Shown here one piece after another: positions 57,242 to 63,723 of a stretch of 64,000 nucleotides of DNA; within the stretch, counting starts at the first letter, position 1; every line of letters starts with the position of its first letter. Made by a program: the position numbers and the translations under genes. The notes beneath the pieces were generated by a model. That model was not told the origin of the DNA. It worked only from the letters and a program-made list of their open reading frames with translations, and did no database searches. Source of the DNA: Tautonia plasticadhaerens (lineage in GTDB: Bacteria > Planctomycetota > Planctomycetia > Isosphaerales > Isosphaeraceae). The stretch is from positions 372,001-436,000 of the forward strand of contig NZ_CP036426.1 of assembly GCF_007752535.1 (NCBI RefSeq), written 5' to 3'.

Positions 57242-57290
57242 CGCCCCCCCGGCGACCGGCCCGACACGAGGCGGATCGGCCATCGTTTCC

Positions 57291-57319
57291 TTGCGTCGGG
57301 CGAAACAATGCTATATAAA
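57291..57319 (+). promoter_or_regulatory. Candidate promoter of the large hybrid kinase gene
   Basis: TTGCGT (57291-57296) and TATAAA (57314-57319) are separated by 17 nt in a short AT-rich patch, 93 nt before the start at 57412. Confidence 0.4.
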
Positions 57320-57411
57320 GTGGAGTCGAGCGAATTCTGGCGTGATAGGCGTTGATTGCCTATTCGGGTCCCCGGCCCTGCTGGCCGGGGAGTCCGAGGA
57401 GCATCCTGGTG

Positions 57412-60400
57412 ATGCAAGCTGATTCGGGCGGATCGGAATCTGATCCGCGGGGGCCGGGGGAATGGTGTGGGCCCCGGGCGATCGTCGGCGTGGGGGTGCC
57501 GGCGGCGTCGGGGAGCGCTGCGCTGGGGACGCTGCTCGGGGTCCTGGGCCCTGGAGTAGGCCTGGCCTATTTGATCGTCCGGGCCGCGGAGGCCGGGGCC
57601 GACCCCGCGGATCCCGGCCCGGGGGGGGCCGCCGGGGGGATCCGGTCGGTCCGGGCGGTCGACGGGCAGCAGATCGAGCCGGGGGTGGCGTACGAGGCCC
57701 CGGCCGGCTGCCTGGTGGGGGTCGAGGGGGGGAGGCTCCGGGTGGGCCCGCCGGGGGGAGGGCGTCGGCCGATCGACCACCTGTTCCGGTCGCTGGCCCG
57801 AGACGGCTCGACGCCCCCGATCGGCATCCTGCTCCCGGCGGATGGGCCCGACGGGGCCGCCGGGCTGATGGAGATCCGGGCCGCCGGCGGCCTGGCGGTG
57901 GTGCTGGATCCGGGGGGGGTCTGCGCCCCGGCGGCCCCCGGGTGCTCCGAGACGGTGGGCGCGGCGGGCCTGGGGCTGACGATCGGCCGCATCCCGGGGG
58001 CGATCGCCGAGTTCTGTCGCAGGCGACCGGCGGTCGCCTGCCGGGTGTCGCCGGACGACCCGCCTCGGGCGTCGAGGCCGCCCTCGGCATCGGCCCGGGG
58101 GGGCGTCGGCCGGCCGTCGTGCCCCGCCCCGTCGCCGGCCGACCGGGCGAGGGAGGCGCTGGCGGAGGCCATGCTCCCGGCCTCGGTGGTCGTCGACGGC
58201 GACGACCGGGCGCTGTACCTGCACGGCGACCTCTCGCCGTACCTGGACCTGCCACGGGGGGAGCCGAGGCCCGACGTGCTGCGGATGCTCCGCCCGGCCC
58301 TGGCAGCCCGGGTCCGGGCGGCGGTCCATTCGAGCAGGAGCGAGGGCGGTCCGGTGGTCGTCGAGGCCCGGGCGGGCCGCGAGCCCGGCGAGGGCGACCG
58401 GATCCGGGTCGCCGTCCGGCCGTTGCCCGGGGACCGACTCGGCCCCGGCGCCCTGGCGATCGGCTTCGAGCAGATCCCGCCGGGACGGCCGATCCCGACC
58501 GACGGCGGGGACGAGGGCCGGGATGCCGGGGGGCTCCGGATGCTGGGGTCGGCTCACGAGGCCCTCGAGGACCTGTCCTCCGGGGCCGAGCTGGCGGCCG
58601 TCTTCCTCGACGACGGGCTCCGGGTGCATCGGGCCACGCCGGAGGCGGCCCGGCTGCTGCAACTCCCCCCCGGGCCGGGCGCCCCGTCGCTCGCCGAGGC
58701 GGGGGGCGAGCTGGTCGACCCGGGCCTGCTCGAGCAGGCCCGCATGGTGCTGAATGACCTCTCCCCCCGGGAGTCGGAGCTGAGGACCCGCGATGGCCGC
58801 TGGTACGTCCGGCGGGCCCGGCCCTCCGTGACGGCCGGCCGCCGGGTCGAGGGGGTGGTGATCACCTTTGAGGACGTGACCGACCTGAAGGCGGCCATCG
58901 ATCGGTCCCGGCTCCGGGAGCGGCAGCAGGCGGCCTTCGCCCGCCTGGGGTTCCAGGCGCTGTCGGTCCCCGACCTGGACGAACTGCTCCACCATGCCGT
59001 CCGGCAGGTCGCCGCGGTGCTCGACGCGGATCTCGCCGAGATCCTGGAGGTGCGGCCCGAGGGGGACCTGTTGCTGAGGGCCGGCGTGGGCTGGTCGCCG
59101 GGCCTGGCGGGCTCAGCCCGGGTGCCCGGCGGGGCCGACTCCCAGGCCGGATACACCCTGGGCGAGACCGAGCCGGTGATCGTCGAGGACCTGGCCCGGG
59201 ATCGCCGTTTCCGCGACCCCGGGCCGCCGGGGGGGCACAGCGTGGTCAGCGGGATCGGTTGCTCGATCCGCGTCGGGGGCCTGCCCTTCGGCGTCCTCTC
59301 GGCGCGCACGACCCGGCCCCGGGCCTTCACGGGGGACGACGCGAACTTCCTCAAGGCGGTGGCCAACCTGATCGCCGACGCCGTGGCCCGGTGCCGGGCC
59401 GAGCAGGACCTCCGGCGCGGCGAGGAGCAACTCCGCCTCGCCCTGACCGAGTCCCCGCTGCCGACGATCATGGCGGCCGAGGACGGGGAGATCCTGCTGG
59501 TCAACCACGCCTTCCGGAGGATCACGGGGTACGAGGCCGACGAGCTGCCCGACCTGGCCACCTGGACCGCCCTGGCCTACGGCGATCGCGCCGCCGAGGT
59601 CCGCTCGGGGATCGACGCCCTGTTCGACCGGGCCGGCTACGTCCACGACGGCGAGTTCGTCATCCGGTCCAGGGGGGGAGGGCGGCGGATCTGGGACTTC
59701 CACACCACCGTGCTGGGCCACCTGAGGGACGGCCGCCGGGCGTTCATCAGCATGGCCCTGGACGTGACCGACCGCAAGCGATCGGAGCGGGAGCTGGGCG
59801 AGCGCCAGGCCCAGCTCCGGATGGCGACCGACGCGGCCGGCATCGGCATCTGGTCGCTCGACTACGCCACCGGCCGCTACGACCTGGCCGGGCATGCCGG
59901 GGCGATCTACGGGGTCGAGCCGGGCCAGGACCTCACCCAGGGACAGCTCCACTCGTGGATCCACCCGGACGACCTGCCGGCGGTGAAGGCCGCGGTGGCG
60001 GCCCGGGACGACCCGCTCGGCGACGGTCGGTTCGAGGTCGAGCACCGCCTGACCCCGCCCGGCGCCGCCGAGCGCTGGGTCTCCGTCCGGGGCCAGGTCG
60101 CCTTCGAGGAACGGGACGGCCGACGGGCCCCGGTCCGGGCCGCGGGCACGGCGATCGACGTCACCTCCAGGAAGGCCGCCGAGCTGAAGGTCCGGGAGGT
60201 CCGCCGGCTGCTCCAGGCGTTCCTCGACGCCTCGCCGGACTTCATCTACGGCAAGGGGGTCGACGGGCGGTACGTCCTGGCCAACCAGGGGTACCTCGAC
60301 CTGCTGGGCGTGACCGCCGAGGAGCTGCTCGGCGCCGAGGACCCGGCCCGGTTCGAGACCGAGGAGGCCCGGCTGCTGCTGGCCGACGACCGCCGGGTCG

Positions 60401-62151
60401 CCCAGGACGGCCGGCCGATCCAGTCGGAGCAGTCGCTGGAGGTCTCCGGCCGCCGCCGGGATTTCCTGATCACCCGGTTCCCCATGCGTGAGGAGGACGG
60501 CCCCATCGAGGCGGTCTGCGGCATCGCCACCGACATCACCCGGCAGAAGCGGGCCGAGCGCTCGCTGGTGGAGGCCGACCGCCGCAAGACCCAGTACCTC
60601 GCCACGCTCGCCCACGAGCTGCGCAACCCCCTGGCCGCCGCCGCCGCGGCCGTCCCCCTGCTGGTCGACCCGGGGGACGAGCGGGAGCGGGCCGAGGCGG
60701 CCGAGATCCTCGACCGGCAGATCCGCCACCTCGTCCGGATGATCGAGGACCTGCTGGACGTCTCCCGGCTCTCCCGGGGGAAGGTCCGGCTCCGCCGGGA
60801 CCGGGTCCGGCTGGAAGAGGCCGCCCGGCGCGCCTGCCGGGACGCCGGCAACCTGATCGCGGCCCGTCGCCACGAACTGGTCGAGCGGATGCCAGCCGGG
60901 CCGGTCTGGGTCGAGGCCGACTCGACCCGACTGTCGCAGGTGTTCGTCAACTTGCTGAGCAACGCCGCCAGGTATACCGAGCCGGGGGGGCGGATCGAGC
61001 TGGAGGTGTCCCGACACGGGGACGAGGCCGTGGCCGTGGTCCGGGACGACGGCAAGGGGATCGAGCCGGGCCTCCTGGAATCGATCTTCGAGCCGTTCTC
61101 CCAGCTCGACGCCGGGCACGAGGAGCCCAACGGCGGCCTCGGCATCGGCCTGACCCTGGTACGGGAACTCGTCCGGTTGCACGGCGGCACCGTCCGGGCC
61201 GAGAGCGAAGGGCCGGGCCGGGGCAGCCGGTTCGTCGTCCGTCTGCCCGTCGCCCCTCCCCCGGGGGAGGGACCCGAGCCCTCCCCCGCCTCCGCCTCCG
61301 CCTCCGCCTCCGCCTCCGCCTCCGCCTCCGCCCCCGGGCCCGGGGCCCGCTCGGGCCGCCGGGTGCTGCTGGTCGACGACAACCGGGATCTCGCCCGGAT
61401 CCTGGCGATCCAGCTCGCCGCGGCCGGCCACCAGGTCCGGACGGCCGGCGACGGCGAGGAGGCGCTGGCCCTGGCCGCCGGCTCGCCGCCGGAGGTCGCC
61501 CTGCTGGACATCGGCCTGCCCGGCCGGGACGGCGTGGCCGTGGGACGGGCCCTCCGGGAACTGCCGGGGCTGGATCGGGTCCGCCTGGTCGCCATGTCCG
61601 GCTACGGACAGCCGAGCGACCTCGACCGCACCCGGGCCGCCGGTTTCGAGCGGCACCTGGTCAAGCCCGTCGACCTCGACGAGTTGATCCGGATCCTCGA
61701 CGCCGAGCCCGTGCCGCCGGCCCCGACCGCCTCGCCCCCCGAGCGGGGCGACCCGGGGGGCCTCGCCGACGGGGGGCCCGACCCCCCCCGCGTGCTGATC
61801 ATCGACGACCAGCGCCCCTTCACCTACCTGGCCCGCCGGGTCATCGCCCGCCAGGGCTTCGTGGTGGCGACGGCCGATTCGGCCCCCTCCGGGATCGACC
61901 TGGCCCGCCGGTTCCGCCCCTCGCTCGTGCTCTGCGACCTGATGCTCGGCCCCGACGGCGACGGCTTCGACGTCGCCCGGGCCCTCCGGTCCGACCCCGC
62001 CACCCGCCTGGCCACCTTGATCGCCGTCTCCGGCAGCACCTCGCCGGACCAGCAGGCCCAGGCCGAGAAGGCCGGCTTCGACCTCTTCCTGACCAAGCCG
62101 GTCGACCTGGGGGACCTCCCATCTCTCCTCTCCCGGGCCTACCGGGGTTGA
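57412..62151 (+). CDS. Large hybrid histidine kinase derived from a CheB-CheR sensor
   Basis: From the ATG at 57412 (GAGGAG 10 nt upstream) the protein is 1579 residues. Domains in order: degenerate CheB methylesterase (about 23-205), PAS of the type that follows CheR in CheB-CheR fusions (250-335), PAS_10-like domain (375-490), GAF (508-660), three PAS domains (670-790, 795-920, 930-1045), HisKA with H1068 (AHELRNPL), HATPase with N1180/N1184 and DDGKGI, a Ser-Ala repeat linker (about 1292-1307), receiver 1 (D1366, K1418) and receiver 2 (D1509, K1562). No membrane helix is seen, so it is probably cytosolic. CheB catalytic Ser and His are lost (P30 and A58 at those places); D147 remains. The CheR domain is absent. 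A TTG at 57352 is also in frame. The signal sensed is unknown. Confidence 0.92.
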   Translation: MQADSGGSESDPRGPGEWCGPRAIVGVGVPAASGSAALGTLLGVLGPGVGLAYLIVRAAEAGADPADPGPGGAAGGIRSVRAVDGQQIEPGVAYEAPAGCLVGVEGGRLRVGPPGGGRRPIDHLFRSLARDGSTPPIGILLPADGPDGAAGLMEIRAAGGLAVVLDPGGVCAPAAPGCSETVGAAGLGLTIGRIPGAIAEFCRRRPAVACRVSPDDPPRASRPPSASARGGVGRPSCPAPSPADRAREALAEAMLPASVVVDGDDRALYLHGDLSPYLDLPRGEPRPDVLRMLRPALAARVRAAVHSSRSEGGPVVVEARAGREPGEGDRIRVAVRPLPGDRLGPGALAIGFEQIPPGRPIPTDGGDEGRDAGGLRMLGSAHEALEDLSSGAELAAVFLDDGLRVHRATPEAARLLQLPPGPGAPSLAEAGGELVDPGLLEQARMVLNDLSPRESELRTRDGRWYVRRARPSVTAGRRVEGVVITFEDVTDLKAAIDRSRLRERQQAAFARLGFQALSVPDLDELLHHAVRQVAAVLDADLAEILEVRPEGDLLLRAGVGWSPGLAGSARVPGGADSQAGYTLGETEPVIVEDLARDRRFRDPGPPGGHSVVSGIGCSIRVGGLPFGVLSARTTRPRAFTGDDANFLKAVANLIADAVARCRAEQDLRRGEEQLRLALTESPLPTIMAAEDGEILLVNHAFRRITGYEADELPDLATWTALAYGDRAAEVRSGIDALFDRAGYVHDGEFVIRSRGGGRRIWDFHTTVLGHLRDGRRAFISMALDVTDRKRSERELGERQAQLRMATDAAGIGIWSLDYATGRYDLAGHAGAIYGVEPGQDLTQGQLHSWIHPDDLPAVKAAVAARDDPLGDGRFEVEHRLTPPGAAERWVSVRGQVAFEERDGRRAPVRAAGTAIDVTSRKAAELKVREVRRLLQAFLDASPDFIYGKGVDGRYVLANQGYLDLLGVTAEELLGAEDPARFETEEARLLLADDRRVAQDGRPIQSEQSLEVSGRRRDFLITRFPMREEDGPIEAVCGIATDITRQKRAERSLVEADRRKTQYLATLAHELRNPLAAAAAAVPLLVDPGDERERAEAAEILDRQIRHLVRMIEDLLDVSRLSRGKVRLRRDRVRLEEAARRACRDAGNLIAARRHELVERMPAGPVWVEADSTRLSQVFVNLLSNAARYTEPGGRIELEVSRHGDEAVAVVRDDGKGIEPGLLESIFEPFSQLDAGHEEPNGGLGIGLTLVRELVRLHGGTVRAESEGPGRGSRFVVRLPVAPPPGEGPEPSPASASASASASASASAPGPGARSGRRVLLVDDNRDLARILAIQLAAAGHQVRTAGDGEEALALAAGSPPEVALLDIGLPGRDGVAVGRALRELPGLDRVRLVAMSGYGQPSDLDRTRAAGFERHLVKPVDLDELIRILDAEPVPPAPTASPPERGDPGGLADGGPDPPRVLIIDDQRPFTYLARRVIARQGFVVATADSAPSGIDLARRFRPSLVLCDLMLGPDGDGFDVARALRSDPATRLATLIAVSGSTSPDQQAQAEKAGFDLFLTKPVDLGDLPSLLSRAYRG
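61288..61332 (+). repeat. In-frame (GCCTCC)7 microsatellite
   Basis: A hexanucleotide GCCTCC is repeated seven times plus a final GCC, encoding an alternating Ala-Ser linker between the ATPase domain and the first receiver of the large kinase. Gain or loss of units keeps the frame and would change linker length. Confidence 0.95.
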
Positions 62152-62460
62152 CCCGAGCCCTCGGGATTATGTTGGTCGTTCGCCCATGTGCTGAGACGAA
62201 CCCGAATGCGTGCCCTCCAGCCCTGTCCGGGCCCGATGCGTCGAGGGGAAACCGACCGGGCCCGGTCGAGTCCCGAATGGTCCGGGAGAAGGACGGCTGG
62301 ACGCCCGAACGACTCGTCGACGCCATCACGTGGCACGCCTCGGGGCGGCAACGTGCCGTGGCGGCCGATCGGGCACGGGCCGGACCACGCCGCCCCCCGG
62401 TCCGACCGCCTCGGCGCCGAGCCTCCGGCACCACGGCGGTGCGAACCCGTGCCCCGACGA
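62152..62460. other. Convergent intergenic gap
   Basis: The 309 nt between the large kinase and the secreted-protein gene hold no recognisable gene or strong hairpin. Confidence 0.4.
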
Positions 62461-63090
62461 TCAGGGCCGGATGAGCTCGCGATAGCCGTTCTTGACGTCG
62501 CCGAGCTCGCCGTAGCAGAACAGACCGGACGTGTCGATCGACATGCCATCGAGGACGATGCTCGCGTCCACCTCGGCCTGGCGGAACCGCCCGTGGAAAT
62601 CGGAGCGATACTTGTAAACGCCGTCGTCGAACGAGTAGCTGGACCTGGTGCGGATGACATTGCCGATCCCCGTCAGCACGGCGCTCACATCGGCGGTCGC
62701 CTCGCGGGCCGTGTCTTCGAGGTAGTTGTAGCAGAAGACGGTGAATCCCTCGGCGCCGAGTTCGGCCGAGCTCAGCCGGTCGATGGAGCACTCCGAGATG
62801 GGGCCGGAGCCGTAGCACTCCTCCTGAGTTTCGAAATCGTAGTAATAGAGGGAGACGTACCCGGACTCGCCTTCCTGCGCCGGTTCCCCTGGAAGCTTGA
62901 TCTTCCCGCGATCGCAGTAGGCATACAGGGAGAGGTAGCCGGTGTCGGTGAAGCCGTCGCAGAAGAGATAGTCCGTGTCGCCCTGGAAGCGGTAGCTGTA
63001 CGTCGTGGCCTGGGCATCGGCCGTCTCGGCCGGGACGACATTGATCAGGATCACGGCGAGTGCAGAAGCAGAGAGGTGACGCAGCGTCAT
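62461..63090 (-). CDS. Secreted cysteine-containing protein of unknown function
   Basis: From the ATG at 63090 (AGGAGA just upstream) the protein is 209 residues with a signal peptide (about 1-27, ETADAQ). The mature part is beta-rich, with many Tyr and Phe and cysteines spaced as possible disulfides (YLFCDGF, YAYCDRG, EECYGSGPISECS, FCYNY, FCYGE). Codon usage is slightly less GC-rich than that of the neighbours. No family was recognised. Confidence 0.75.
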   Translation of the reverse strand: MTLRHLSASALAVILINVVPAETADAQATTYSYRFQGDTDYLFCDGFTDTGYLSLYAYCDRGKIKLPGEPAQEGESGYVSLYYYDFETQEECYGSGPISECSIDRLSSAELGAEGFTVFCYNYLEDTAREATADVSAVLTGIGNVIRTRSSYSFDDGVYKYRSDFHGRFRQAEVDASIVLDGMSIDTSGLFCYGELGDVKNGYRELIRP

Positions 63091-63723
63091 TGGAGTCTCC
63101 TCTGGAGAAGCGGCGGGGCCGCTGGCCCCGCGGCAGGCAGAGAATCGCACAGACTCGTCCGTGATGGGAATTCCTGACGACGATCCCGGGCCGGATTGGC
63201 CCGTTGACCCACGACGGGGACGGACCACGATCGCCGCGATCGACGATCGCGTGACCTCGCGGATCTCCGCGCTCCGAAGCACCCGGAGACGGCTCCATCC
63301 GCCCCCCATCACTCACCGGGGTCCTAAGTACGCATCGACCCGCCCCGGTGCCTGACGAAGGGCTGTGACATCGTTTCGTCAGATCGTCAATTGCGAGACT
63401 ATGACAAGGCAGAGGTCCCATTTCAAGAGGATACTTATAATTTTATTTTGCTTATTATGGGGCGATCATTTTCCTTCTTATGCCTGACTCGGTGGCCATG
63501 GTCCGTACGACGGTGGGGCGTGCACAAAAGTATGTGGGTGTCAATCTTGGCGTTGCTTCCGGGGGGCCGTCGGCGACTCGGGCGAGGGAGCTCGAGACGA
63601 CCAGCTCCCCCGGCGATCCTGGCGGGTTTGGGGCCAATCGCCGCTTCTCGCAAAGGTGGGTCGATCGCGTTCTCGACTCCGATCCGGCCCTCGGGTCGGA
63701 TGAGATGAGGGCGCCTGGCCCGG
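63091..63723. other. Intergenic region with AT-rich patch
   Basis: No gene could be supported in these 633 nt. A distinct AT-rich patch lies at about 63421-63480 (ACTTATAATTTTATTTTGC...). It contains no terminal repeats, and frames through it are short. It may hold promoters for the secreted-protein gene (minus), but none is clear. Confidence 0.45.

Follow-up and report, generated by a model that had tools for sequence, protein, structure and literature searches.

What is a methylesterase fold without catalytic residues doing at the front of a hybrid histidine kinase, and from what kind of protein did this arrangement arise? The question is raised by a gene for a 1579-residue protein in the window analysed here, a stretch of 64,000 nucleotides of Tautonia plasticadhaerens DNA (contig NZ_CP036426.1), whose features are listed in Table 1. 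A first-pass annotation, made from the sequence alone, had described the protein as a CheB-CheR sensor stripped of its chemotaxis enzymes, and had suggested that the dead CheB fold is reused as a sensor or scaffold. Third-position GC in the reading frame is 95%, and an in-frame TTG lies 5' of the ATG, at 57352. Pfam searches confirmed the downstream layout as first described, namely a GAF domain, three PAS domains, a kinase and two receivers. The features of a hybrid histidine kinase (HisKA with its H-box, HATPase_c and receiver domains) are present, and the kinase is apparently intact. A linker of Ala-Ser dipeptide repeats (residues ~1290-1310, window ~61280-61340) connects the kinase to the first receiver.

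Table 1. Features of the gene for the 1579-residue protein, in positions of the window
Feature	Position	Strand	Evidence
Whole gene, 1579 aa, ATG start	57412..62151	+	ORF list
Degenerate CheB methylesterase domain, residues 23-204	57478..58023	+	Pfam, PDB sequence search, Foldseek
Ala31 in catalytic Ser column (Ser164 of Salmonella CheB)	57502..57504	+	Alignments
Ala58 in catalytic His column (His190 of Salmonella CheB)	57583..57585	+	Alignments
PADGPD, residues 142-147, replacing [ST]GMGxD; catalytic Asp is D147	57835..57852	+	
CheR-less junction; Pro/Arg/Ser-rich linker of ~43 residues (~330 in relatives)	58024..58152	+	
Post-CheR PAS-like domain, residues ~248-357	58153..58482	+	Profile
36-residue linker in place of a coiled coil bearing CheR-type sites (97-142 residues in relatives)	58474..58581	+	
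PAS_10 domain, residues 389-490	58576..58881	+	Pfam
GAF domain	58972..59385	+	Pfam
Three PAS domains (limits of the second approximate)	59425..60552	+	Pfam
HisKA domain with HELRNP H-box	60586..60777	+	Pfam
HATPase_c domain	60919..61254	+	Pfam
Receiver domain 1; phosphoacceptor motifs DD, LLDIG, MSG, VKP	61363..61698	+	Pfam, sequence
Receiver domain 2 (approximate); phosphoacceptor motifs DD, LCDLM, VSG, TKP	61789..62136	+	Pfam, sequence

The N-terminus of the protein is a genuine CheB methylesterase domain. Pfam CheB_methylest matched residues 32-174 with 50.8 bits (E 2e-13, cutoff 24), a PDB sequence search with the domain returned only CheB methylesterases at E<=0.01, and a Foldseek search with an AlphaFold model, whose CheB part had a pLDDT of mostly 72-89, returned only CheB structures at E<0.001. 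The usable model was built on an alignment that included intact CheB proteins, so the modelled fold is not independent evidence; a model of the domain from its single sequence reached a pLDDT of 35 and was uninformative. The CheB fold first recognized from the order of motifs was thus recovered by profile, PDB sequence and structure searches alike. This domain scores 55.6 bits, whereas the four other CheB domains of the same genome reach 180-204 bits. Compared with CheB methylesterases (PF01339; 1CHD, 1A2O, 6YMZ), the domain shares the fold, the core residues and the catalytic Asp, but lacks the catalytic Ser and His, the Met of the active-site loop and the N-terminal receiver.

Two alignments served to examine the active site, one of them profile-based with about 45 relatives, the other made separately with CheB proteins of other phyla. 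Both placed Ala31 in the column of the catalytic Ser and Ala58 in that of the catalytic His, in agreement with the earlier claim that the two residues had been replaced. By the offset of the PDB sequence match, D147 is the retained counterpart of the catalytic Asp286 in Salmonella numbering, and D144 stands in place of Met283. Residues 1-210 contain a single His, H123, which lies within the conserved PIDHLFRSLA helix, so that realignment cannot rescue a catalytic His, and recovery of the residue in this way was ruled out. Active relatives share 38 conserved columns, of which the protein retains 21; the lost ones cluster around the Ser loop, in the segment of the His and at the SG within the active-site loop, and an Ala/Gly/Pro-rich loop of low confidence stands in place of the segment after the catalytic His column. 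In the stretch from residue 94 to residue 160, leaving the active-site loop aside, 12 of 13 conserved columns are retained, although this division into core and active site was made post hoc, after the data had been seen. The domain is predicted to be catalytically dead. If the domain were still an active esterase, using a shifted serine and a different general base, it could draw on the retained Asp147 and on Ser33 and Ser35 near the catalytic loop; but the active-site segments offer no His for the part, and both the [ST]G and the Met of the active-site loop are replaced. We regard this reading as highly improbable.

In relatives, CheB is followed by CheR_N, CheR, a PAS-like domain that has no Pfam name, a coiled coil and PAS_10; PAS and kinase domains come next, in some cases with a receiver. 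Neither CheR_N nor CheR was found in the 1579-residue protein or in any ORF of the window. A profile of the post-CheR domain, run on 26 genomes of the family, detected 28 copies. CheR lies directly upstream of 27; the sole copy without it is that of the present protein. The proposed deletion of CheR is upheld by these results, and the two domains that normally follow it, the PAS-like domain (residues 251-354) and then PAS_10, are kept in order, as had also been noted. Set against CheB-CheR-PAS kinase hybrids (such as the 1427-residue protein of L050, from the same genome, and those of L044, L048 and L060), the protein shares the CheB N-terminus, the post-CheR PAS-like domain and PAS_10 and, downstream, PAS, HisKA and HATPase; it lacks CheR, the linker helix and the CheB Ser and His, and it adds a GAF domain and a second receiver, the hybrids having a receiver or none. 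Besides an intact hybrid, the same genome holds three chemoreceptor genes and two further CheR domains, so the cell is not without chemosensory systems.

A third loss, overlooked in the first-pass annotation, affects the segment that separates the PAS-like domain from PAS_10. Each of the 44 relatives that have both domains joins them by a helix of 97-142 residues, a coiled coil in which NEEL-type CheR sites recur. This coiled coil is absent from the 1579-residue protein, whose 36-residue linker contains no site. Sites were defined by [ASTG]xx[EQ][EQ]xx[ASTG], the core of the chemoreceptor methylation consensus [ASTG]-[ASTG]-X-X-[EQ]-[EQ]-X-X-[ASTG]-[ASTG] (PMC6829392). Every one of the 44 linker helices contains 4-9 matches to this core pattern (mean 6.5, against 0.56 in shuffles), at a density of 5.8 per 100 residues compared with 0.10 downstream in the same proteins, the pattern being looser than the full consensus and following in part from the heptad repeat. 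The full ten-position consensus was matched only 14 times in 49 CheR-bearing ORFs, and the methylation-site evidence is for this reason suggestive. Among the 1929 ORFs of the fetched loci, clusters of sites were found almost only in CheB-CheR hybrids and in apparent chemoreceptors, the latter in loci carrying stand-alone che genes, with one or two other ORFs besides. The site-rich linker helix of CheB-CheR-PAS kinases is the probable substrate of the fused CheR and CheB. With CheR, the CheB active site and the linker helix all lost, the 1579-residue protein is left without the writer, the active site of the eraser and the probable substrate.

To judge from its motifs, loss of the CheB active site recurs in the CheB-CheR-PAS kinase family. 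L044 (2379-6452) and L048 (3444-7271) encode CheB-CheR kinases without the CheB Ser and His motifs, the His column holding Pro. Both group, with strong support, with L060, which keeps its full triad; CheR appears undamaged in each of the three proteins, indicating that loss of CheB catalysis can precede loss of CheR. In L046 the catalytic His has become Arg. L113 (3948-7064; G003:C336) lacks CheR and the second half of CheB, its first 94 CheB positions being fused to a site-bearing helix, PAS_10, PAS, kinase and receiver. Its loss of CheR is independent of that in the 1579-residue protein; since L113 keeps the helix, the losses of CheR and helix are not always coupled, and the module is lost by different routes. 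Elsewhere, Asp286 is replaced by Asn or His, with Ser and His kept, in two supported clades (L049, L056, L094, L098, L100 and also L061; L047, L057 and L120), and in L053 (1642-4501) the frame of a hybrid CheB-CheR protein is apparently split by a frameshift within CheB, the remainder lying in another frame. L114 and L116 encode stand-alone CheB-like proteins of ~200 residues in which the catalytic Ser and His motifs look replaced, the two genes of L116 adjoining each other on the same strand.

Of all CheB domains in the set, that of the 1579-residue protein has diverged furthest, with a median identity of 28.9% as against 44.6% for relatives; next come the domains of L044 and L048, both of which have lost the Ser and His motifs. 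The two flanking domains show median identities of 23.6 and 33.0, compared with 26.1 and 39.8 in relatives, and the divergence is concentrated in the CheB domain while its neighbours change at about normal rates. In a tree, the protein sat on a branch nine times the median length at an unsupported position, and the placement was discarded. No close ortholog was found in 45 genomes of the family, 398 of the class and 392 of the phylum (overlapping sets) or in a contig scan, nor was one found in three congeners. The collection of homologues called for earlier showed CheB domains with replaced catalytic motifs recurring among relatives, but yielded no ortholog that would show its conservation. 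The gene, an insert specific to its lineage, is flanked by a conserved NAD synthetase gene and a downstream block that is likewise conserved; the content of this slot (57242-63700 of the window) differs in each congener, with Tad-like and ABC transporter genes in L108 and little in L109 and L110.

These results lead us to conclude that the 1579-residue protein is probably a hybrid kinase that has shed an in-cis methylation module and retains its dead CheB as a relic or a structural domain. There is good support for descent from a CheB-CheR-PAS kinase that lost CheR and the active site of its CheB, and to this extent the original interpretation stands; reuse of the fold as a sensor or scaffold is conjectural, since no ortholog was found and the fast divergence fits a relic as well as reuse. 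In that rival reading the domain would have gained a new positive role in the kinase, whether in sensing a ligand, in dimer contact or as a scaffold that binds partners. The retention of core positions where those of the catalytic loop were replaced hints that the fold is still needed. The open reading frame with its high third-position GC and the recurrence of dead CheB domains in the family, including the stand-alone ones of L114 and L116, agree with such a role. The domain nevertheless diverges faster than all other CheB domains compared, carries the Ala/Gly/Pro-rich replacement loop after the catalytic His column and has no ortholog in which conservation could be seen, and the contrast between core and active site was drawn with the data in hand; we therefore hold a new role to be distinctly unlikely.

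The opposite reading, that the N-terminal domain is a functionless relic decaying on its way to loss, draws on the same fast divergence, on a shifted composition, on the absence of this lineage-specific gene from the same locus in three congeners and on L113, where the whole of CheR and one half of CheB are already gone. Against it, a fold of 180 residues is still recognizable, its core glycines are retained and no frameshift interrupts it, and pure decay appears somewhat unlikely. Residue retention leans to structural constraint, while divergence rate and the lack of an ortholog lean to decay; the preferred reading, a kinase that has shed its methylation module, accommodates either fate of the fold.

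How such a kinase would work can be outlined by comparison. We infer that in the relatives a single chain holds the writer CheR, the eraser CheB and, between two PAS-type domains, a site-rich coiled coil, and that kinase output would be tuned by reversible methylation of this inter-PAS helix. A precedent exists in RsbK of Bacillus cereus, a hybrid kinase regulated through methylation of its signalling helix (PMC4574943); there the methyltransferase, RsbM, is a separate protein and RsbK carries CHASE3/HAMP/GAF domains, whereas the 1579-residue protein has no methylation module. In the lineage of the latter, CheR and helix were deleted and the CheB active site eroded, and with them in-cis adaptation based on methylation would be gone. 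The GAF and PAS domains that are left would perceive signals and control autophosphorylation of the HisKA His and phosphoryl transfer to the two receivers, like in conventional hybrid kinases. The layout of kinase core and receivers is indeed that of ordinary PAS/GAF hybrid histidine kinases (ArcB/TorS-like models), from which the protein differs in being fronted by a dead CheB and two post-CheR domains. The CheB fold would persist as a non-catalytic N-terminal domain, either a weakly constrained relic or a structural or contact domain.

In the literature covered, which included few subscription journals, no substrate of the fused methylation enzymes of CheB-CheR-PAS kinase hybrids and no catalytically dead CheB in CheB-CheR hybrids were described. 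A conserved helix rich in sites, gone in the 1579-residue protein along with its CheR and its CheB active site, suggests self-modification by the fused enzymes. We tentatively propose, as a possibility, that CheB-CheR-PAS kinases, which are common in this class of bacteria, methylate and demethylate their own inter-PAS helix, and that the 1579-residue protein represents a natural loss of writer, eraser and substrate in which the kinase was kept. If this is true, the protein would provide a built-in comparison for testing the mechanism of a self-adapting sensor.
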